NCBI RefSeq assembly: GCF_014642835.1
Contig: NZ_BMJA01000002.1
Coordinates: 202,519 to 266,518, forward strand
Origin: Dyella nitratireducens
Lineage (GTDB): Bacteria; Pseudomonadota; Gammaproteobacteria; Xanthomonadales; Rhodanobacteraceae
Length of the DNA stretch: 64,000 nucleotides
Direction of reading: 5' to 3'
The notes under the pieces were generated by a model. It was not told the DNA's origin. It worked only from the letters and a program-made list of their open reading frames with translations, and did no database searches. The position numbers were made by a program, and so were the translations under genes. Each line of letters starts with the position of its first letter. The stretch's first letter is position 1. Shown piece after piece: positions 18,582 to 32,426 of this stretch.

Positions 18582-18779
18582 GTGGGATCTCAAGCAAGTC
18601 TTCGCGCCCGCGGCCTGTGGCTGCGTCGGGCTCGTGCGGCGGTGCGATGACTAAATCCATTTTTATATAGATAGAGAGGTGACCACGACGCATACATCGA
18701 TGAGGTGACAGATACATCACAGGGGGCTCGCTTTCTTTTTTCATCTACTTTTTTCATCTACTTTTTATGGAGAAAAAAC

Positions 18780-21077
18780 GTGAAAACCGAGCATGTGATG
18801 ATCAGTGTCGCGATTGCGGCAGCGCTTGCTACGCTGCCTTCATTGGTTTTGGCTTCTTCTTCAAGTGCCGCGTTGGCGGGTATCAACACCGCCGAAGCGC
18901 CGCGCGTAACACAAACGGTCGATAACCGGGTCGTTTCCGCCCTGAGCAATACCCATCTGTCGCTGCTGGACAAGGTGACTCCCACCAGCGCCGTGGCTGA
19001 TGCCACACCGATGAACCATATGCAATTGGTTCTGCAACGCAGTGCATTGCGCACGACTGCGTTGAATCAGCTGATCGCCACGCAGCACGATCCTTCCTCA
19101 TCCAAATTTCATCAATGGGTAACGCCTGCCGAGTTCGGAAAGGCTTTCGGCGTGTCTGATGCGGATATCAGCGCTGTCACGGCCTGGCTGACTTCGCAAG
19201 GCTTCAAGGTCAACGGTGTGCTCCCGAACAGGACGCAGATCGATTTCAGCGGTACTGCCGGACAGGTACGGCAGGCTTTCCACACGCAAGAGAGCCATTA
19301 CGTCGTCAACCAGAAGAGCCATATTGCCAACACGGGCGATATCAGCATTCCAACGGCATTGCGCAGCGTGGTGGTGGGTGTGGCGGGCTTGAACGATTTC
19401 CGGCCGCAGCCCTTGCACCAGCAGCCGCAGATCGCGCAGTTCAATGGCGCTAGCCAGCGCTTCAAGATTCAGCAGTCGGCCAAGACCGCCAGTGTCAGTG
19501 GTGGTCCGAAACCGATGGTGAATTTCGAGGGCGGCCAACGCGGCTTCGTTCCCTATGACATGCAGACGATCTACAACACCGCTCCCTTGTACGTTCAAGG
19601 CTTGACTGGCAAGGGCATCACGATCGCATTGGTGGAAGACCAGGACATGGATGTATCGGACTGGCCGAACTTCGTCAGCCAGTTTGGCCTGGGCGGCTAC
19701 GGCGGCACCTTCACGCAGTTCCAGCCGTTGCTATCGCCGGATACCGGCAATTGCACCGATCCGGGTGGCAATAATCCCGACGGCGAAAGCATTGAGACCG
19801 TGCTTGATTCGGAATACTCCACCGCGATGGCGCCGGGTGCATCGATCTGGGTGGCAACGTGCAGCGACACCGGCAGCAACAATTTCTTCGGTGGCGTGTT
19901 CACCGCGGCAAGCAATTTGATCAATGGCGCATCGCGTCCCAACATCATCAGCGCCAGCTATGGCTACGGTGAAGGCTTTACCGATGCGGCCAGCAAGACG
20001 GCTATCGACCTGATGTGGGCCCAGGCGGATGCGGAAGGCATCTCGGTTTTCGTATCGAGCGGCGATTCCGGTTCCAACCCGAGCTTCAATGGCTCGATCA
20101 TCAACGGCGTGCCGGCCATTGATGCCAACTCCTTTGGTTCGTCGGCCAACAACACGGCCGTCGGCGGTTCGGATACGGCGGATGTGCTCGATGGCACGAG
20201 CAGCAAGTACTTCAACACGACCTTGAATGCAGTGTATGGATCGGCCAAGTCGTATGTGCCGGAAATCACCTGGAACCAATCGTGCGGCAACACCCGCGCT
20301 GCCAAGGATCTGATCAACGCCTCGGGTTTGCAGTTCTGCAAGAACGCGCTGATCTATGATCCCAACGGCGATTACGTCACCTCCGAAAGCGGCAGCGGTG
20401 GCGCGTCTTCGGTCGTTGCAAAGCCGTCGTGGCAGCGGGTGGTGCGCGGCGCGGCCAAAGACCAGTCGCGTGACTTGCCGGATGTTTCGTTGTTCGCCGG
20501 TTCCTATGGCGGTTATTCGTGGGTGATCCTGTGCACCGGCGCCTATCCGTGCACGGCGAACTTCGCCTCGCCGGTGGTTCTGGAAGGCGGTACCTCGCTG
20601 TCGTCGCCGATGTTCGCCGGCATCCAGGCGCTGATCGACCAGGGCTTGTCCAGCGCGGGCGGATCGGTGGATCAAGGCAATGCCGCACCGACGCTGTATG
20701 AGCTGGCACGCAACGAGTACGGTGGCACGACCGGCTCGGCGCCGTCGACACTTGCTGCCTGCAATGCCAACAACGGTACCAAGGGCACCAGCAAGTGCGT
20801 GTTCTACAACATCACCGACGGCGGCAACTCCACGCAGTGCATTGAGCTGCTAAGTGAAAACGAAGTCACGCCCGACTGCTACTTCTACGGCACGATCAAC
20901 AATTTCGAAGGATTCTTCGGGCCGGTAAAAGTCGGCCTGACCTCGTCCAATGCCACGAAGTACAACAGCACCACGGCGGCTTACGCGGCACAAGCCGGCT
21001 GGAGTTTCGCCAATGGCCTGGGCTCGGTGAATGCCACCAACTTGCTGTCGGCGTGGAAGTCGTTCAACGGTCTGTGA
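18780..21077 (+). CDS. S53 family (sedolisin/pro-kumamolisin) serine peptidase
   Basis: A 765-residue secreted pro-enzyme from a GTG start at 18780 that has GGAG seven bases upstream; earlier in-frame starts add 25 unlikely residues. A signal peptide ends near VLASSS. An activation domain spans about residues 30-200 (LDKVTPTSAVADATPMNHMQ, then HDPSSSKFHQWVTPAEFGKAF). The catalytic region has ETVLD, providing Glu and Asp four residues apart, SSGDSG with the oxyanion Asp, and GGTSLSSP with the nucleophilic Ser. These are the S53 hallmarks. Such enzymes are typically acid-active secreted endopeptidases. It is flanked by the two TonB-like paralogues and followed by a strong terminator. Confidence 0.93.
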   Translation: MKTEHVMISVAIAAALATLPSLVLASSSSAALAGINTAEAPRVTQTVDNRVVSALSNTHLSLLDKVTPTSAVADATPMNHMQLVLQRSALRTTALNQLIATQHDPSSSKFHQWVTPAEFGKAFGVSDADISAVTAWLTSQGFKVNGVLPNRTQIDFSGTAGQVRQAFHTQESHYVVNQKSHIANTGDISIPTALRSVVVGVAGLNDFRPQPLHQQPQIAQFNGASQRFKIQQSAKTASVSGGPKPMVNFEGGQRGFVPYDMQTIYNTAPLYVQGLTGKGITIALVEDQDMDVSDWPNFVSQFGLGGYGGTFTQFQPLLSPDTGNCTDPGGNNPDGESIETVLDSEYSTAMAPGASIWVATCSDTGSNNFFGGVFTAASNLINGASRPNIISASYGYGEGFTDAASKTAIDLMWAQADAEGISVFVSSGDSGSNPSFNGSIINGVPAIDANSFGSSANNTAVGGSDTADVLDGTSSKYFNTTLNAVYGSAKSYVPEITWNQSCGNTRAAKDLINASGLQFCKNALIYDPNGDYVTSESGSGGASSVVAKPSWQRVVRGAAKDQSRDLPDVSLFAGSYGGYSWVILCTGAYPCTANFASPVVLEGGTSLSSPMFAGIQALIDQGLSSAGGSVDQGNAAPTLYELARNEYGGTTGSAPSTLAACNANNGTKGTSKCVFYNITDGGNSTQCIELLSENEVTPDCYFYGTINNFEGFFGPVKVGLTSSNATKYNSTTAAYAAQAGWSFANGLGSVNATNLLSAWKSFNGL

Positions 21078-23370: not shown

Positions 23371-25623
23371 TCACAACAACCGCAGCAATTCCTTCATCAA
23401 CGGCAGCCGGCGCACACGCACCGCACTCACACGAAACACCGCATTGGCCAGTGCTGGTGCCGCCGTCGGCATCGCAAGGAAACTTGCACCAGCCGGATCG
23501 CCTTCACCCGGCACCGTGATCACTTCAACCGTGCGCGGCAACTGCGCCATGCTGGCGAGCGGGTAATCCTTCCAGCTGTTTTGCTGCACCTTGCCGTCTT
23601 TCACCGTGATGGCGAGATTGAGCGCGGTAGACAGCGCATCCAGCGTTGCGCCGGCAACTTGTCCTTCCAGCCCCATCGGGTTGATCACCCGGCCCACATC
23701 CACCGCACACACGGCGCGTTCAATGGTGAGCTTTTCGCCCTGCATCGATACTTCGATCGCGTGTGCGACGTAAGCGCCGTCCATATACCAGCAGGCGAGT
23801 CCCAAGCCGTTGACCGAATGCAGCCAGTCTTTCCAGCCGATGCGGTCGGTAGCGAGTTTCAGCACGTTGATCAACCGCGCAGTATCGACCGCACCGCCAC
23901 CTTGCTGAGGAATCAGCCGCGGCTCGCCGATCAGGCGCAGGTTGGTGACCAGTGGATCTTCCTTCAGCGAATGCGCGATTTCATCGATGAAGCTGTCTAC
24001 CGCGAAGGCGTTGGTGATATGCGGCATGCCGCGATGCGGGCCGCGCGGCATGGATGATGAAAGACCGAACCAGTCGCTGCGGTAGTTGGGTACGAAGCCG
24101 GCGGGAAACTGATTGACGCTGACTTCCGAACTCCATAGATGGTCGACCGGTACGCCGCGGCCAGCCAGTGCCGAGGCGCTGGCGACACGCTGGTTCCATG
24201 CAAGTACTTGGCGCTTGGCCTCGATGATCGCCTGGAACTTGTGCACGCAGCCGGAGCGGTAGAAGTCGTGCGTGAGATCTTCGTCGCGCGTCCAGAACAG
24301 GCGCAGCGGCTTGTCGACTTCCTTCGCCAGCAACACGGCTTCGGCTACGTAGTCGTGGTCGAGACGCCGCCCGTAGCCGCCGCCGATGCGCGGCACGCGG
24401 ATGTCGATCTGATCGGGGGCCAAGCCAGTGAGACGCTGCACCACGGTCCACGCTTGTTGCGGTGATTGCGTCGGCACGTAAAGCGTGGCGCTGGTCTTGT
24501 CCAGGCGTACCAGGCAGTTCATCGGCTCGTTGGTGGCATGGGCCAGCCACGGCTGGTAGTAGATCGCTTCGACGCGGCGCGCAGCTTTGCGTTTCGCCTT
24601 GTCGATGTCGCCATCATCGCGTAGGCGAGTGGTCGGTGCTGCGTCGCTGTTGATGAGTGCGGTGGCCTGCTGTTCCAGCGCGGCGCTGCTTTCGCTGCCG
24701 CTTGCGCCGGGCTTCCACTGGAGCTTCAGCGCGCGCCGTCCTTGCAAGGCAATCCAGGTGTTTTCGGCAATCACGGCTACGGCCGGCGCAATCACCGTTT
24801 CGCCCGGCGGCAGATGAGGATCGGGTTTGAGCTCGATCACCTTCACCACGCCCTTGATGGCGAGTGCCGCGCTGCTGTCGAGGCCGCTGAGTTGACCATC
24901 CGGCCACGGGCAATGTGCAAGCACGGCGACCAGCGTGTCGCCGAAGTGCTTGTCCAGCGCGTACTCCGTTTGGCCCGTGACGATGGCGCGTGCTTCGGCG
25001 TCGCCGGCGGGCTTGCCGATCAAGTTGTAGTGATCCGGCGTCTTCAGCAAAAGGCTGCCGGGGGGCAGGGCGACCTTCGCCGCGGCGGCAGCCAGCTCCC
25101 CGTAACCAAGGCGGCGCCCGCCAGGTGCTATGACAAATCCCTTTTCCGTGCGTAGTTGCTCCGGTGGGACACCCAGTTGCGGCACGGCGGCTCGAATCAA
25201 CAGCCAGCGTGCAAGCGCACCGGCCGAGCGCAGATCGCGCCAGGCGCGTGGCATCGAGTTGCCCGTGCCGCCCGCTTGCTGGCCGTATAGCCAGTGTGGC
25301 TTGCCGTTGTCGCTGGCCACACCCAGGCCAAGCGGCAGCACGCGCACGCGTTGCCAGTCGGCATCCATTTCGTCCGCAATGATGCGCGCCAACGCGGTGG
25401 CGACGCCGGTGCCGGTTTCCGGGTCACGCGAACCGATCAGCACCGTGCCATCTGCATCGACGCGCACGAACATGCCGAAGTCATACAGCGCATCGCCCAG
25501 CATGTCGGGCGGCACGAGTGCGCTGGCTGCGCGGGCACTGCGAATACCGACGATCAAGGCGCCGGCCGTGCCGGCGAGTACTTGCAGAAAGCGGCGGCGC
25601 GAGAGCTTCACCGTGCCGCTCAT
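23371..25623 (-). CDS. Molybdopterin-binding hydroxylase large subunit (IorB-like, Tat-exported)
   Basis: A 750-residue protein starting MSGTVKLSRRRFLQVLAGTA, a twin-arginine signal (SRRRFLQ), so it is probably exported folded with its cofactor. Features of the xanthine dehydrogenase/isoquinoline 1-oxidoreductase beta family include GTGVATALARIIADEMDADW, PRIGGGYGRRLDHDYVAEAVLLA, MPRGPHRGMPHITNAFAVDSFIDEIA and the late AVCAVDVGRVINPMGLEGQVAGA. Such enzymes hydroxylate aldehydes or N-heterocycles at a molybdenum cytosine-dinucleotide cofactor. It overlaps the small-subunit stop by 4 nt (ATGA). The substrate cannot be told from sequence. Confidence 0.9.
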   Translation of the reverse strand: MSGTVKLSRRRFLQVLAGTAGALIVGIRSARAASALVPPDMLGDALYDFGMFVRVDADGTVLIGSRDPETGTGVATALARIIADEMDADWQRVRVLPLGLGVASDNGKPHWLYGQQAGGTGNSMPRAWRDLRSAGALARWLLIRAAVPQLGVPPEQLRTEKGFVIAPGGRRLGYGELAAAAAKVALPPGSLLLKTPDHYNLIGKPAGDAEARAIVTGQTEYALDKHFGDTLVAVLAHCPWPDGQLSGLDSSAALAIKGVVKVIELKPDPHLPPGETVIAPAVAVIAENTWIALQGRRALKLQWKPGASGSESSAALEQQATALINSDAAPTTRLRDDGDIDKAKRKAARRVEAIYYQPWLAHATNEPMNCLVRLDKTSATLYVPTQSPQQAWTVVQRLTGLAPDQIDIRVPRIGGGYGRRLDHDYVAEAVLLAKEVDKPLRLFWTRDEDLTHDFYRSGCVHKFQAIIEAKRQVLAWNQRVASASALAGRGVPVDHLWSSEVSVNQFPAGFVPNYRSDWFGLSSSMPRGPHRGMPHITNAFAVDSFIDEIAHSLKEDPLVTNLRLIGEPRLIPQQGGGAVDTARLINVLKLATDRIGWKDWLHSVNGLGLACWYMDGAYVAHAIEVSMQGEKLTIERAVCAVDVGRVINPMGLEGQVAGATLDALSTALNLAITVKDGKVQQNSWKDYPLASMAQLPRTVEVITVPGEGDPAGASFLAMPTAAPALANAVFRVSAVRVRRLPLMKELLRLL

Positions 25624-26162
25624 GCCTTGGTTCCTTGCTTCATCGCTGCAGCAGCGCGCTTGATCGCCTGGCGCACGCGCGTCTGGCAGCCGCAACGGCA
25701 AAGGTTGGGCAGGCCGTCGATGTCGTTGTCGGAAGGGTCTTTGTTGCGGTTGAGCAGCTCCATCGAGGCGATCAGCCAACCGGGCGTGCAATAGCCGCAG
25801 CCGATGGCGTCTTCATCGATAAATGCTTGCTGCAGCGGATGCAGGTTGCCGTTGCCCCTGGCGTCGGCCAGGCCTTCCACCGTGATGACCTGTTTGCCAG
25901 CCAGCTTGCTCATCGGAGTGTTGATGGCGGACGTGGCCTTGCCGTTCACCAGCACCAGATCCGCGCCGCCGTCGCCGTGCTCGCCGCCGTACTTGGTGCC
26001 GTCCAACTGCAGCACATCGCGCAGGTACCACAGCAGAGGCATCGCCGGATCGCCGGTGTGGCGATAGCGCTCGCCATTGATCTGCAAGTCGATGCCAGCA
26101 CGAACGGGAGTGGGAGTGATTTCCGTCGGCTTGGCGGGCAGCGCGGCGTGGTCTTGCGCCAT
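25620..26162 (-). CDS. [2Fe-2S] small subunit of molybdenum hydroxylase (IorA-like), N-terminal cluster cysteines absent
   Basis: A 180-residue homologue of the two-cluster ferredoxin-like subunit of molybdenum hydroxylases. The C-terminal cluster motif is intact: GCGYC (C122, C125) and LCRCGCQTRVRQAI (C155, C157). The N-terminal plant-ferredoxin loop, normally a C-x4-C-x2-C arrangement just after GTKYG, here reads GGEHGDGGAD (residues 59-68) with no cysteine. The usual fourth cysteine near residue 80 is also missing. The rest of the fold (LDGTKYG, LVLVNG, QVITVEGLA) is retained and the frame is intact, so this is not decay by frameshift. An N-terminal extension of about 22 residues precedes the domain. 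It is co-transcribed with the large subunit. Confidence 0.88.
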   Translation of the reverse strand: MAQDHAALPAKPTEITPTPVRAGIDLQINGERYRHTGDPAMPLLWYLRDVLQLDGTKYGGEHGDGGADLVLVNGKATSAINTPMSKLAGKQVITVEGLADARGNGNLHPLQQAFIDEDAIGCGYCTPGWLIASMELLNRNKDPSDNDIDGLPNLCRCGCQTRVRQAIKRAAAAMKQGTKA

Positions 26163-26226
26163 CGGGTGGTGTCTCCGTAATGCTTATCCGCCCATTGTGG
26201 CATTGCCGCAAGAAATTTATCACTGT

Positions 26227-26366
26227 GTTGAAAAAGTGCTTGCTGCACTTTTTCAACTCGCCGAGTTCGGCACAGGTCCGAACTCGGCTCCGCGAATCAA
26301 GCGTTTATGCGCTTGATTCGCGGCAGGCCATCCGTGGCCTGTCTAACAGGCTCAATAGCCTGTTAG
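26227..26366. repeat. Array of five consecutive perfect stem-loops
   Basis: Five inverted repeats follow one another with at most two bases between them. The stems are 13 bp (26227-26239/26245-26257), 11 bp (26260-26270/26278-26288), 14 bp (26290-26303/26310-26323), 7 bp (26324-26330/26335-26341) and 10 bp (26343-26352/26357-26366), with loops of 5, 7, 6, 4 and 4 nt. All stems are perfect and all have different sequences. The last stem contains the stop codon of the permease gene on the minus strand. It could be a structured RNA, a strong 3' UTR, or a protein-binding or mobile palindromic element. Confidence 0.9.
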
Positions 26367-27697
26367 GGACGGGCCGGACTGAACAGCCGTCGCCAAATAA
26401 GATAGACGGGAATGCCAGCAATCATGATGGCGAGGCCGATACCGGTATTCACCAAACTTGTACGCAGGCTTTGCACCACGACCAGCGCGATGGTAGCGAT
26501 GAAGATCAGTGGCGGCAGCGGATAACCGGGCACGCTGAACCTTACGTCGGCAGCCTCCGCGCCCGTTTCCCGGCGGCGATACCAGAACAGCGTACTCACG
26601 CCCACCGCACAGGCCAGCCAATCGCCGAACGTGGCGTAGTCCAGCAACTGGCCGTAGCTGCCCGACAGCACCAGCACGATCGACCAGCCCACCAGCAGCA
26701 GCAGCGCCAGATTGGGTGTGTGATGGCGCGGGTGCAGGCGCCCCACGCTGGCGAAGAACAGGCCGTCCGCACCCATCACTTGCAGGACACGCGCACCCGC
26801 CACCAGGGTGATGTTGCAAAAGCCGAAGGTGGAAATGGCGATGCCCACCGCGATCAGCTTGGCGCCGGTCGTGCCGAAGACCTTGTTCATCACGTCGGCG
26901 GCGGGGGTGTTGCTATGCGCCAGGCCATCGTGGCCCAGCACCGACAGGTACGCGACGTTGACCAAGGCATACGCGCCGATCACGCCCAGCATGCCAACGA
27001 CCAGTGCGCGGGGCAGGGTGCGCTGCGGTTCTTTTACTTCGCCGGCCAGATTGTTGAGGTAGGTGAAGCCGGAGTATGCGAACAGCACCGGCAGTGCCGC
27101 GCTCATGAACCCGACGTCGCTGCGAGCCGGGTCCACCGCGAGCCACGGCGTGCCGTTGCCGACACCGGCCAGAAACAGCCCACATACCACCAGCACCGCC
27201 ACGGCCAGCAGTTTCAACAAGGTGAAGATGTTCTGCATCTGCACGCCGAACTTCAGGCCGAATACGTTGATCAGCGCGACCAGTGCCAGCGCGCCCGCGG
27301 CCATGGGCGTGGCCATGCCGGCGGGCAGTCCGAAGACCGTGGCGGCATAGCTGGCGAAGATGGTGGCCACCGCTGCGCTGGAACCGGAATAGATCACCAG
27401 CAACATGGTCCAGCCGAACAGGAAGCCGGCCAGCGGACCGAAGGCTTCGCGCAGATAGACATAGCTGCCGCCGGCATGCGGCCGGCGCGCGCCCAGTTCG
27501 GCGTAGCACAGGGCGCCAAGCAGCGTGAGCACACCGGCGCCCACCCACATCAGCAGCAGGGCCAGTCCCGACTCGGTGCGCTGCGCAGCGATGCCCGGAT
27601 TAAGAAAAATGCCGCCGCCGATGATGCCGCCGATTACGACCAGTGCTGCATCGCGCAGACGCAGGCTGCGCTGATAGCCGGTAACCGGTGTTGTCAT
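26363..27697 (-). CDS. APC superfamily amino-acid permease
   Basis: A 444-residue protein with about 12 hydrophobic segments, starting MTTPVTGYQRSLRLRDAALVVIGGIIGGGIF. The first membrane helix has the GGIIGGGIFLNPG motif of amino acid/polyamine/organocation transporters. Other family text includes AGFLFGWTMLLVIYSG and FAYSGFTYLNNLAGEVKEP, the latter typical of LAT-type exchangers. The ATG at 27697 places this helix near the N-terminus as expected; longer frames run into the repeat region. The substrate is unknown. The stop codon sits in the last hairpin of the five-stem array. Confidence 0.93.
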   Translation of the reverse strand: MTTPVTGYQRSLRLRDAALVVIGGIIGGGIFLNPGIAAQRTESGLALLLMWVGAGVLTLLGALCYAELGARRPHAGGSYVYLREAFGPLAGFLFGWTMLLVIYSGSSAAVATIFASYAATVFGLPAGMATPMAAGALALVALINVFGLKFGVQMQNIFTLLKLLAVAVLVVCGLFLAGVGNGTPWLAVDPARSDVGFMSAALPVLFAYSGFTYLNNLAGEVKEPQRTLPRALVVGMLGVIGAYALVNVAYLSVLGHDGLAHSNTPAADVMNKVFGTTGAKLIAVGIAISTFGFCNITLVAGARVLQVMGADGLFFASVGRLHPRHHTPNLALLLLVGWSIVLVLSGSYGQLLDYATFGDWLACAVGVSTLFWYRRRETGAEAADVRFSVPGYPLPPLIFIATIALVVVQSLRTSLVNTGIGLAIMIAGIPVYLIWRRLFSPARP

Positions 27698-27810
27698 GAG
27701 AGGGCGCCCTGGAATGGAAAGGCAGAGCATGGCAATCGCAGAGGTGTACGGCAAGCGAGGCCTGTTCTTCTCCCTCATCGTCGCCGAAAGGGATGGACAG
27801 GGGGCGGAAC

Positions 27811-28163
27811 GTCGGTTGGGGTGCAAACCCTGAGATATCCCCACGTTTTTTGCGTTGTCCAAGCGGAAAAGTTGGAGTCCGGGTCAATGTTGTTTCAGAG
27901 CGAACCGTCATTCCGGCGAAGGCCGGCACGCGGGGAGAGCACATGGATGTGCTCGGCTTTGAGGAGCGAGGAATCCATGCTTCGCACTGGCGATGGATTC
28001 CGGCCTTCGCCGGAATGACGGCTGGCTTCGAAACAAACTTCATGTAAACCCAGGACTTCTCCGGCATAACGGGCAAAAAACGTGGGGATATCTCAGGGTG
28101 CAAACCCCAACGTCTTCGCGCGCACATGCATTCCAAACGTTGGGGTTTGCACCCCAACCTACG
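27811..28163. repeat. Two-arm palindromic repeat, copy 4, interrupted by an insertion
   Basis: Bases 27811-27830 are the beginning of the left arm. The rest of the left arm, the spacer and the right arm continue at 28108-28163. Removing 27831-28107 restores a standard 76-bp copy. This repeat and its insertion fill most of the 657-bp gap between the permease and the outer-membrane protein gene. Confidence 0.85.
27831..28095. mobile_element. 265-bp MITE-like non-coding element with 23-bp terminal inverted repeats
   Basis: The ends are perfect inverted repeats of 23 bp (27831-27853, starting TGAGATATCCCCACG, and 28073-28095, ending CGTGGGGATATCTCA). The flanks carry an identical 12-bp direct repeat GGGTGCAAACCC (27819-27830 and 28096-28107). 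Inside, a 20-bp perfect inverted repeat GTCATTCCGGCGAAGGCCGG (27907-27926 and 28000-28019) matches the repeat at 9597. The element is palindromic along almost its full length and contains no credible gene. Confidence 0.82.
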
Positions 28164-29999: not shown

Positions 30000-31925
30000 T
30001 TAGAACCCGCTACGCAGGAAAACATCCAGGTTTGCGACATTCAGCGAGCCGATGCCGGCACCCTGGTTGTAGCGCGGCGCACCGTAGTAGAACCAGTTGT
30101 CACCGGCACGCACGCTGTTGAACGGCGAGAAGAAGCCGTAGCCGAAGATGTTCTGCAGCGCATACACCTGCGGATTCCACAAGCCGATGCGATGGCCCGT
30201 ACTTTGCCGCAGCAGGGCGGTGATGCCGTTGAGCTGCGGTGCTACGAAGCTCGTGCCGCCTTCGCCGGACGCCAGGCCGCCATCGACCGTCGACACAAAG
30301 ATGTAGCCTGTTTCCGGATCGGCATTCAACGAAATATCCGGCACGTTGCGGCCCGCGAAATGGCTGGGCAACTGCAGCAGCGTGGTCGGGCCGGCGCTGG
30401 GATCGTTGAAGACCAGCGACTGGTTCGGCTCGCTGCGGCGAATGCCCCAGGTAAACGCCTGATAGAACGGCTCGTGCCAATACACGCTGACGCCGCCACC
30501 ACCACCCGAGGAGAACAGGTTGATGGGACGTACGTACTGGTTGAAATAGTTCTGCAGATAATCCCAACCCCACACGCTTTCCTGCGTCACCGACTCGGTC
30601 GGGCCGGTGCCGAATTGATAGCTGTAAGGCGTGGTGGTGCCGCCAGCCGCGGTGATGTACGGATCGGAAGCCGGCGAATCCACGGTAAGCGGCGCGGTGT
30701 ATTGGCCTACGCCGGTGCCGGCACCGAGATCGCGGACGGTGTCATAGGCGCCCGAATCGCCTGAAGCCGCGAACAGCGATTGTCCTTGTACGGCGGCTTC
30801 CAGGAAGATCTTATGGAACGCACGCAAATCCCCCGCGTCGCTCGTGTCGGTGTTGCTTGCGCCGGCCACGTTCAATGCAGCGAAATTGAAGATTTCCGGC
30901 AAGCCCCAGCTGGTGGAGATGCTATCGGCGATATCGTCCGACACGGCTTGCGCAAACGCGTCGACATAACCGTCGGTGGTATTGGGCGCGTCATACACGA
31001 TGATGTTGGCGAACGGTGCGATACCGCCGGACTGTTCCACGTCGATCGAGGTTTCGCCGCTGCCGCCGTCGATCGCTGCGCCGCCATCCACATGCACCTG
31101 TGTGATGCGATTGGGTTTGGTGGTCAGGCCGATATCCGACCAATAGGCGGTCGCGTCGCTGGGATAGAAGTTGGACAGCGTGACGATGCCGACGGTCGAG
31201 CCCTTGCCGACGACACCGCGGTGATAAAGCGGGTTGATGTTGTAGAAGTTGGCAACGTCGCCCACGGTGTATTCACCGGGCACACCCGAGGCAGTGGGAT
31301 TGCTGCTCGAACCACTGGAACCCTTGCTGCTCTGCGCGTTGAGCTTGACGTTCGGCGCACCGAGCGATGCAAGAGCCGGCGAGGAGACGTGATGCGGGCG
31401 ATACACTTTCTCGCTGCTCAGACCGGTGGCCACATCGACCACGTCGGCAATTGACGACGGTATCTGCAGCGCCGTCACCGGCTTGTGGAAGCTATGGCCG
31501 TTCTGGCGCGAGACGTAGTTGTGGACGGAGGTCTGGAACAGCTTGCCGAATTGGCTCAGCGTGCCGCTGGTGCGGATGGCCAGATGGCCGGGCAACACCG
31601 TGCTGCTCAAGCCTTGGCTCTGCAGATAGGACTGCACCCGTGCGACCTCCGCATCCGTTGCGCCGTATTGCTGCGCAAACTGCTGCGGAGTGAGGAATTG
31701 CTGATAGTGCGCGCTGCCGGGTGTCACGGTCTGGCGGATGTAATCCTCCAGCGCAGCCTGGTTATGCAGCTTCAGAATCAGCGTGACGTGTACGGTCTGA
31801 TTGGCCGGTGCGGTGCCGGCATCTACCGCGGGTAGGGCGCTTGCGGCCCACGTGCCGGCGCTGGCGCCGGTAAGCAGCAGGCCAAGGGATAACGAAAGCG
31901 ACTTGCGATGCAGGTTTGCAAACAT
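30000..31925 (-). CDS. S53 family (sedolisin/pro-kumamolisin) serine peptidase
   Basis: A 641-residue secreted protease from the ATG at 31925, which has GGGAGAAG upstream. The signal peptide runs to WAASA. The pro-domain (about 45-190) includes NQAALEDYIRQTVTPGSAHYQQFLTPQQFAQQYG, the usual pro-kumamolisin motif. The catalytic core shows ETSID (Glu and Asp of the triad), ASGDSG, and GGTSFVAP with the Ser nucleophile. It differs from the S53 enzyme at 18780 in length and sequence, so they are distant paralogues. It has a 501-bp divergent upstream region shared with the barrel gene at 32427. Confidence 0.93.
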   Translation of the reverse strand: MFANLHRKSLSLSLGLLLTGASAGTWAASALPAVDAGTAPANQTVHVTLILKLHNQAALEDYIRQTVTPGSAHYQQFLTPQQFAQQYGATDAEVARVQSYLQSQGLSSTVLPGHLAIRTSGTLSQFGKLFQTSVHNYVSRQNGHSFHKPVTALQIPSSIADVVDVATGLSSEKVYRPHHVSSPALASLGAPNVKLNAQSSKGSSGSSSNPTASGVPGEYTVGDVANFYNINPLYHRGVVGKGSTVGIVTLSNFYPSDATAYWSDIGLTTKPNRITQVHVDGGAAIDGGSGETSIDVEQSGGIAPFANIIVYDAPNTTDGYVDAFAQAVSDDIADSISTSWGLPEIFNFAALNVAGASNTDTSDAGDLRAFHKIFLEAAVQGQSLFAASGDSGAYDTVRDLGAGTGVGQYTAPLTVDSPASDPYITAAGGTTTPYSYQFGTGPTESVTQESVWGWDYLQNYFNQYVRPINLFSSGGGGGVSVYWHEPFYQAFTWGIRRSEPNQSLVFNDPSAGPTTLLQLPSHFAGRNVPDISLNADPETGYIFVSTVDGGLASGEGGTSFVAPQLNGITALLRQSTGHRIGLWNPQVYALQNIFGYGFFSPFNSVRAGDNWFYYGAPRYNQGAGIGSLNVANLDVFLRSGF

Positions 31926-32426
31926 GGTGCTTCTCCCTAACGGGCGCGATGGCATCTACGCATGCAAGCAAAGGCTGGAAGCGCACACCCTTGCCGCACC
32001 CGAACGATGTCGTTGCGCATTTGATTGATGGTCGATTTCCTAGCGACGTCGTCCGTCTCCCCTGACGACCAGCATCGCGCCGCTGAGATCAGCCTATAGC
32101 GCTGGCATGAAACCTGGAAGTGCCTGAGATGCATGTGGGCAATACAAGATGTCATGTGCAGGCTAGTTCTTATGAATTGTCTCGATTCAATGGGAAATAT
32201 CGAGGTTGCGCGTGTAGTCCTCCCTTGCCAGCGAGCTGCAAAAAACGTGTGCACTGAGTTTTACAAACGGGTTGCGTAAGTGAATCCCTACCTGTGTGCA
32301 AGGCATTTCTTTAGGCGGCGACGAAGCGATCAGTTAGCTTTTGCAAAATTTTTACGCTCGGAACCGCCTCCCATTTTTTGCGCGGTTCGGCGGCGGCATC
32401 TCGTTCAAAACATCAAGGAGTTTTTC
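31926..32426. other. Divergent intergenic region, no gene seen
   Basis: This 501-bp stretch between the S53 protease (left) and barrel protein (right) has no frame with protein character and no copy of the repeat families. The part from 32050 to 32350 is visibly more AT-rich than the coding DNA, as expected for two divergent promoters. No operator could be defined by eye. Confidence 0.5.

Follow-up and report, generated by a model that had tools for sequence, protein, structure and literature searches.

Results

A five-hairpin array between two genes of the minus strand

The window, by which we refer to the entire 64-kb stretch of Dyella nitratireducens DNA analysed in this study, contains at positions 26227-26366 five perfect inverted repeats whose stems comprise 13, 11, 14, 7 and 10 bp, with 0-2 bases separating neighbouring hairpins, as had been described in an initial annotation made from the sequence alone. 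In plus-strand order, the last of these hairpins encloses the stop codon of a permease gene (26363-26365), again in line with that description. Its placement of the block between the permease and a molybdenum-hydroxylase operon is equally correct, but the direction has to be revised: the two flanking genes are encoded on the minus strand, where the permease comes first, then the block and then the operon. The block, being a spacer between two co-oriented genes, therefore has to be read on the minus strand. The hairpins are numbered H1 to H5 in this direction, and the features of the locus are as follows:

26363..27862, minus strand: APC-type amino-acid permease, host gene upstream (family matches below curated cut-offs)
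26363..26366, minus strand: target site CTAA, left copy of the duplication, with TAA as the permease stop codon
26343..26366, minus strand: H1, 10-bp stem, which holds the left terminal repeat (CAGGCT...) and reaches into the target CTAA
26324..26341, minus strand: H2, 7-bp stem, apical loop CGGA
26329..26336, minus strand: CACGGATG, loop and closing pairs of H2, which fits the RsmA/CsrA consensus CANGGANG
26290..26323, minus strand: H3, 14-bp stem, loop without GGA
26260..26288, minus strand: H4, 11-bp stem, with a GGA that spans closing pairs and loop
26227..26257, minus strand: H5, 13-bp stem with A-tract and T-tract arms, apical loop AGCAA
26221..26231, minus strand: right terminal repeat, TCAACACAGTG compared to TCTCAACATCCTG in other copies
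26217..26220, minus strand: ATAA, probable right copy of a 4-bp YTAR duplication with one change, from comparison with empty sites
25620..26162, minus strand: [2Fe-2S] subunit of a molybdenum hydroxylase, host gene downstream (matches below curated cut-offs)
23371..25791, minus strand: large molybdenum-binding subunit, host gene (family matches below curated cut-offs)

Four of the five stems were provided by the inverted-repeat listing itself; the 7-bp stem CAGGCCA/TGGCCTG (26324-26341) was read from the sequence and is present in folds of both strands. The segment 26200-26400 folds with -106.2 kcal/mol on the plus strand (z -10.0) and with -108.6 kcal/mol on the minus strand (z -10.7), and in neither case was any of 200 shuffled sequences as good. 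In a scan of the 64-kb window for stems of at least 9 bp with loops of 3-10 and gaps of up to 30 nt, the block was the sole hairpin cluster, the other 13 hairpins being isolated, and direct repeats are absent among its five stems. A pattern scan of positions 25900-26700 found neither promoters nor terminators; in particular, this region contains no intrinsic terminator in the form of a GC-rich stem followed by a T run, and the T-tract of H5 is located within its stem. Elsewhere in the window, open reading frames at 27600-28160 translate into VIPAKAGI and AFAGMT strings, a pattern that we take to be another dispersed palindromic repeat, and two large proteins encoded at 18705-21077 (plus strand) and 30000-31955 (minus strand) presumably are sedolisin-type (S53) proteases, judged by their translation.

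A dispersed family of hairpin elements

In 16 genomes of the genus, blastn detected dispersed relatives of the block, the longer of which show 73-84% identity. A covariance model (R1) was built from an alignment of 22 copies (A1); further copies that had been located, namely L166, L162 and some decayed ones, did not enter it. With this model, the element was detected in every genus genome (16 of 16, E up to 0.01). At E up to 1e-4, it was detected in 95 of 147 family genomes (19 of 26 genera). For the class, the count was 30 of 274 genomes, and a set of 299 genomes drawn across the phylum contributed 38, of which 29 belong to a single family outside the class (f201). In D. choica, the model gave 53 matches (E up to 0.01), including two antisense duplicates and some fragments. 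As to the genome of the window itself, the copy count by blastn that the initial annotation had in mind returned one full copy and its palindromic echo, which first suggested a single-copy oddity; the model then added four decayed matches (E up to 0.01). The block is identified, by sequence and predicted structure, as one copy of a dispersed family of about 145 nt, in which the order of the five hairpins is constant.

Our detailed comparison covers 149 copies, which correspond to 154 model matches minus three antisense ones (L125, L121 and L209), a weak one (L285:1676) and one at the same place as another (L293, same as L229). They are the best-scoring copies among the matches listed and no random sample. 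Five further copies (L308-L312) stand outside this set and were counted together with 11 copies from the class as 16 copies from other families. Of the 149 copies, 103 retain the full set of hairpins with at least six pairs per stem, 37 retain four, eight three and one two, with H1 being the hairpin that is lost most often (23 copies). The covariance-model search of related genomes that had been proposed initially thus finds the element recurring with the same order of hairpins and with covarying stems, and a decay of stems without compensation, which had been named as the outcome that would speak against a selected structure, is not seen overall, although single copies do decay (9 of 149 keep only two or three hairpins). 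In one genome, G141, the copies are nearly identical to one another, illustrating that the family has recently been active.

Two smaller observations concern the architecture of individual copies. Three copies of D. choica (L134, L252 and L258) share a closely similar additional insert, which is placed within the loop of H4 and bears two further perfect hairpins, possibly a nested mobile element. L157 and L257 are shortened copies without internal hairpins, as though entire hairpins go as units.

Insertion at a stop codon and IS5-type ends

The gene pair of permease and hydroxylase is conserved in many Rhodanobacteraceae, with the named permease orthologues of highest identity being nearly all from Dyella, and it permits a direct comparison of occupied and empty sites. 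Among 80 fetched loci of relatives, 52 were measurable, and in 40 of these just 9-10 nt separate the permease stop from a conserved motif (GCAATGCCACAAT); the remaining 12 have longer spacers of 32-163 nt, and one of them (L034) holds a B-type copy of the element. In relatives without the element, CTAA is directly followed by TTTCTTGCGGCAATGCCACAATG or a variant of it. An ancestral junction CTAA-TTTCTTGCGG has thus been converted into CTAA-(CAGGCT ... CAACACAGTG)-ATAA-ATTTCTTGCGG in the window, and the comparison of these sequences establishes the block as an insertion at the CTAA that holds the permease stop codon. In D. choica, another subfamily of the element resides at the same CTAA, with a perfect CTAA duplication on both sides. 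Different sequences, which resemble IS5-type ends, follow the same permease stop in D. monticola and D. flava (L036 and L037), so that this site may be an insertion hot spot.

The ends of the element resemble those of IS5-type insertion sequences. A-type copies start with CTARCAGGCTGTTGAGAAA and finish with an imperfect inverse of it, their terminal inverted repeats being CTARCAGGCTGTTGA.. and ..TCAACATCCTG. The left repeat contained in H1 is common to other copies and to an IS5-family IS: a 15-mer, CAGGCTGTTGAGAAA, is found at both ends of a complete IS of about 1.2 kb (G009:C162:3624-4858), whose transposase belongs to the IS5 family (E 2.1e-75). This match to an autonomous IS concerns the A-type ends. 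B-type copies carry the terminal inverted repeats GGAAACTCTGA.. and ..TCAGACCATCC; the B/C-type copies as a group end differently (GGAARCTCTGA), and YTAR duplications likewise flank those that were read. Duplications of 4 bp that conform to YTAR, a target duplication typical of IS5 elements, were read in individual copies and comprise CTAA/CTAA in D. choica, CTAG/CTAG in L137 and TTAG/TTAG in L306 and L307, with the pair CTAA/ATAA of the window being one change away from such a duplication. A YTAR target can hold the stop codons TAA or TAG, so that its duplication restores the end of the gene.

Terminal inverted repeats, target duplication and, in A-type copies, ends shared with an autonomous IS are the properties by which IS5-family MITEs are recognised, and sequence comparison thus gives good support to the view that the element moves in the manner of an IS5-type MITE. 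The nearly identical copies of G141 together with the empty sites imply that such movement was recent. A relative of the matching transposase is encoded in three of the 16 genomes of the genus, and no IS5_4 transposase was found in the genome of the window, in D. choica, in G007 or in G141. Since the matching transposase is absent from its own genome, the copy in the window is probably stranded.

Covariation and strand asymmetry of the stems

The stems carry signs that point to selection at the level of RNA. RNAalifold, applied to the 22 copies of alignment A1, predicts 28 pairs in H2-H4, to which its coverage is restricted as H1 and H5 are insufficiently aligned, and 22 of these pairs show changes on both sides that preserve pairing. 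A second set consists of nine copies found between rplL and rpoB in as many genomes of the genus (L183, L185, L186, L189, L202, L253, L256, L260 and L165, with the genes read in L185). In these orthologues, the stems of H2-H5 are 95.6% paired, nine of 35 pairs carry changes in both partners, and conservation does not extend to H1. Their covariation score of 0.302 compares to 0.207 in shuffled alignments, with none of 500 shuffles reaching the observed value, in a procedure that ignores the relatedness of the nine copies, and further pair types number 26 compared to 23.9, no clear excess since 56 of 500 shuffles reach this value.

A pronounced asymmetry is found in the mismatches of the stems. 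A process acting at the DNA level would generate G-U and A-C at equal frequency because each appears as the other when the opposite strand is read, and an excess of G-U over A-C on one strand thus points to selection on an RNA. On the strand running from H1 to H5, the 149 copies contain 165 G-T and 75 A-C mismatches, and the excess persists if one copy is taken per genus site (80 vs 37 at 67 sites), in 56 copies from other genera and classes (53 vs 16) and in the nine rplL-rpoB orthologues (31 vs 9). The sequence data thus support a structure that is selected as RNA. With orthologues collapsed and neighbouring genes called by a codon score of our own, A-type sites mostly point toward a co-oriented downstream gene (25 vs 7, p 0.002), and no such bias was detected for B/C sites (17 vs 10, p 0.25).

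A sense-strand GGA motif in the loops of H2 and H5

Two reports describe the Rsm-binding motif as A/U-CANGGANG-U/A and RUACARGGAUGU as the consensus selected by E. coli CsrA (PMC6849547, PMC6692469). This consensus of RsmE, RsmA and CsrA (CANGGANG) is present on the sense strand in 118 of the 149 copies and never on the antisense strand, with 124 hits compared to about 10 in shuffled sequences. Apical loops with A.GGA or CAGGA are concentrated in two of the five hairpins, namely H2 (121/140) and H5 (94/146), and are nearly absent from H1 (1/135), H3 (0/146) and H4 (2/136), where the totals omit hairpins without usable stem. A plain GGA located in the loop or its two closing pairs is found in H2 (125/140), H5 (105/146), H1 (5/135), H3 (0/146) and H4 (60/136), and H4 thus carries a GGA too, though outside the consensus context. 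The count for H2, whose loop region ranks with the best-conserved portions of the element, is inflated, as the model was trained on copies that hold the motif in this hairpin, which makes H5 the cleaner test. In the 16 copies from other families, CANGGANG occurs in H2 of 14 and in H5 of eight; the H5 of the model itself differs, and examples from these families (CATGGATG, CAAGGATG, CAGGGAAG) are nearer to the binding consensus than the CAGGAA of the model. Among the remaining copies of that set, five have CAGGA in H5 and one is without GGA there.

The motif is retained to different degree in different groups of copies. All nine copies of the rplL-rpoB set have GGA in both loops, with CA.GGATG in H2 (one C-to-T change) and the string GGCAGGAGC in H5 otherwise invariant, while H1 and the loops of H3 and H4 vary. 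Of six copies at a flhA-flhF site, five hold the motif in H2 and five in H5. At a site between a MarR regulator and an RND outer-membrane lipoprotein, it is found in H2 of 6/7 and in H5 of 1/6 copies (plain GGA in H5 of 4/6), and in the B/C copies A.GGA or CAGGA is found in just 11/31 of the H5 loops, the motif being present in H2 of 27/31. Many copies carry the motif in both loops, 20 of 31 B/C copies were not counted with it in H5, and the copy of the window has a loop of the A.GGA type only in H2. Its H5 loop reads AGCAA compared to AGGAA in many copies, and the loss of this GGA makes the activity of the window copy itself doubtful.

The genome of the window encodes one CsrA (E 2.0e-25). 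Within the phylum, a CsrA gene is found in 36 of 38 genomes with the element compared to 144 of 261 others, a difference that is confounded by phylogeny, and the two genomes that have the element and are without CsrA are 74% and 69% complete. Within the class, the association is not significant (28/30 vs 207/244, p 0.28).

Sites shared between genomes

Besides the rplL-rpoB site, copies recur at the site between the MarR regulator and the lipoprotein (seven copies, one of them in the genome of the window), between flhA and flhF (six), between cheD and cheB (two), next to a PilH-like regulator (two) and between a tRNA and prs (two). The gene names reflect our own recognition of protein sequences translated from one or two members per site, to which the other members were assigned by similarity of their flanks. 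Genes of motility and chemotaxis are classical targets of RsmA/CsrA; the present sample of sites is too small for a test of such a preference. The copies at rplL-rpoB, flhA-flhF, MarR-efflux and cheD-cheB appear to be kept by the host.

The right arm of H1 mirrors the flanking sequence

A recognisable left repeat is present in 38 of the 149 copies, and in these the right arm of H1 agrees, in its outer part, with the flank of its own copy, with a summed run of 78 compared to 26.6 expected and a maximum of 55 in 5000 permutations, which were pooled over subfamilies. In six copies (L224, L299, L289, L295, L139 and L195), H1 is an inverted copy of the 3' end of the host gene including its stop codon, with arm and flank agreeing copy by copy, and synonymous differences in the last codons of flhA (GGGCGCTGA vs GGACGTTGA) are mirrored in the other arm of H1. 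A selection of the target through pairing by this arm, in the style of a bridge RNA, was considered as an explanation of the match and rejected, as the young copies of G141 have almost identical arms despite differing flanks. Most of these young copies lack the match, with six of seven scored showing zero consecutive outward positions and one showing three, from which it follows that the match arises later and not by choice of the target. A stepwise compensation to an arbitrary coding sequence is unlikely, and these sequence patterns are explained by template switching, a mechanism that has been proposed for RNA stems (PMC8794818). Such copying and selection on the stems are compatible and not mutually exclusive.

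Relationship to known elements

The element shares with IS5-family MITEs its short length, the lack of a transposase, the IS5-type terminal repeats, the 4-bp YTAR duplications and its dispersal. The interior of a MITE normally consists of leftover or unrelated DNA. In contrast, the interior of the element is a conserved and covarying array of five hairpins, which, unlike in IS5 MITEs, is common to subfamilies with different terminal repeats and to several families of the phylum. The dispersed palindromes also recall REP/REPIN sequences. However, REPs are described as 20-40 bp long with GTAG or CGTC tags (PMC3733652), and a comparison of size, ends and tags sets the element apart, as it is about 145 nt long, is composed of five distinct hairpins and is bounded by IS5-type ends and YTAR duplications.

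With respect to its loops, the element resembles the sequestering RNAs RsmX, RsmY, RsmZ, PrrB, CsrB and RsmW (RF00166, RF02809, clan CL00106), which contain several hairpins with GGA in apical loops. In contrast to these, whose genes reside at one or few loci, the element is dispersed and, by its sequence, mobile, and its motif is found mainly in two of the five loops. Neither the window nor 11 copies gave any Rfam match at gathering score. In narrow searches of four copies, sense-strand matches below this score were obtained for RsmW (RF02809; L310, whole model, 38.8 bits, E 1.8e-5, with 11.9 bits in the window and a gathering score of 52), for PrrB/RsmZ (RF00166; L308, 25.8 bits, E 1.8e-4, gathering score 44) and for TD-2 (RF03162; window 28.1 bits, E 0.012; L308 30.2 bits, E 0.0054; L207 35.5 bits, E 4.2e-4; gathering score 48.7). 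A wider search of 16 copies with 47 kb of sequence and E up to 0.5 did not report RsmW, RsmZ or TD-2, and unrelated families, too, gave weaker matches, on the sense as well as the antisense strand. TD-2 resembles the element in its first hairpin (ccAuGGAugg) and in the last, which has A/U-tract arms and a cAcGgAUg loop, comparable to H2 and H5; unlike the element, it is shorter (98 nt) and has three hairpins. In the wider search, a segment that covers H4-H5 of one copy (L206:1489-1568) matches the gyrA leader motif (RF01740, E 3.1e-5, under gathering score), which may be a domesticated piece of the five-hairpin family.

Two RNAs described in the literature share the proposed function. RsmW is reported to bind RsmA with a Kd of 11.5 nM and to be derived from a 3' UTR (PMC4950607). 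RsmU of Xanthomonas campestris, an RsmA-binding 3'-UTR RNA in a relative of Dyella, can be likened to the element by its description and is reported as confined to Xanthomonas (PMC7694677). In the openly accessible portion of the literature, we found no description of a five-hairpin family of this kind or of mobile RsmA/CsrA sites.

Discussion

The distinct properties of the block are best accommodated by viewing it as a copy of a non-autonomous mobile element with a length of roughly 145 bp. The RNA of this element would form the five hairpins and serve as a platform for RsmA/CsrA, and to this explanation, taken as a whole, we assign a probability of roughly 0.55. Comparative sequence analysis establishes the insertion at CTAA, the dispersed copies with the same order of hairpins, the IS5-type ends with their YTAR duplications, the paired changes in the stems and the restriction of the H2 and H5 loop motif to one strand. 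Beyond these features, an IS5-family transposase would move the element, which could land at the ends of genes without damaging them, since the duplicated YTAR can contain the stop codon (TAA or TAG). The element would be transcribed together with the neighbouring operon, and in the resulting RNA H2 and H5 would hold RsmA/CsrA, acting either as decoy distributed over many transcripts or in the local control of flanking genes, with H3 and H4 presumably serving as spacers. Three readings that the initial annotation had placed side by side meet in this proposal: that of a selected RNA structure, supported by the compensatory changes, the asymmetry of G-U over A-C and the sense-only loop motif; that of a palindromic mobile element, well supported by the insertion relative to empty sites, the terminal repeats, the YTAR duplications and the dispersed copies; and that of a binding platform, which gains from a loop motif of the RsmA/CsrA type and where binding is suggested by this motif. 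A mobile platform of RNA that binds RsmA/CsrA is thus our best reading of the element.

Among the alternatives, a plain IS5-derived MITE without function at the RNA level, whose hairpins would be by-products perfected by template switching during replication (quasi-palindrome correction), is unlikely, though it accounts for part of the data. The match of the right arm of H1 to its own flank, far above expectation in the 38 copies, the inversion of host gene ends in some H1 stems, the lack of the match in most of the young copies of G141 and the published precedent for RNA stems are all in accordance with such a process. However, a mechanism that is blind to the strand predicts equal numbers of G-T and A-C mismatches instead of the 165 and 75 observed, and it leaves the concentration of GGA in H2 and H5 on one strand unaccounted for. 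Template switching might well work alongside selection.

It is still less probable that the element is a multi-hairpin terminator or a stabiliser of mRNA 3' ends that was spread by transposition, with H5 as bidirectional terminator. Among 70 site-by-subfamily rows, with genes called by our codon score, a co-oriented gene terminates at the 5' boundary of the element in 16 and an opposed gene at its 3' boundary in seven, H5 has arms with A- and T-tracts, and the copies at rplL-rpoB and flhA-flhF are located within what we take to be operons. Yet the scan of the region around the block finds no terminator, convergent neighbours, where such an element would be expected, are rare (two of 52 rows with both neighbours called), and such a role again leaves unexplained why GGA is concentrated in two of the loops. 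We give little credence to a cis-acting DNA element, which would act as platform for a DNA-bending or nucleoid protein instead of as RNA. Palindromes are typical of binding sites in DNA, and the location of the copies examined, mostly between called genes, would suit such a role, whereas the loop sequences and the excess of G-U over A-C are strand-specific and the paired changes in the stems could hardly be tolerated by a sequence-specific DNA-binding protein. Finally, a fortuitous accumulation of unrelated terminators or inverted repeats in one intergenic region, named initially as a refuting possibility and compatible with the absence of direct repeats among the five stems, is refuted to near certainty by the recurrence of the same array in many genomes, in the same order at over a hundred places (all five hairpins in 103 of 149 copies), and by the nature of the block as insertion.

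If the proposed RsmA/CsrA platform is correct, its implications extend beyond the locus. We tentatively consider, at less than even odds, that the family constitutes a transposon lineage found across the phylum with RsmA/CsrA-binding RNA as cargo, where a mobile element titrates or rewires a global post-transcriptional network, where some copies, such as those at rplL-rpoB, have become fixed regulatory parts of the host and where sRNAs confined to one locus, RsmW among them, could derive from copies domesticated long ago. Each insertion would then provide a transcript with new binding sites for the regulator, and transposition would spread regulator-binding RNA in Proteobacteria as a source of new RsmA/CsrA sponges and target sites, which would offer a reason for the apparent unrelatedness of such sRNAs between lineages. 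The H1 stems that copy the ends of genes provide, in addition, a natural test of whether perfect hairpins and 'compensatory' changes originate from selection, from template switching or from both. Since Xanthomonas is reported to be without homologues of the classical sponges (PMC7694677), the elements are candidates for this role in its relatives.
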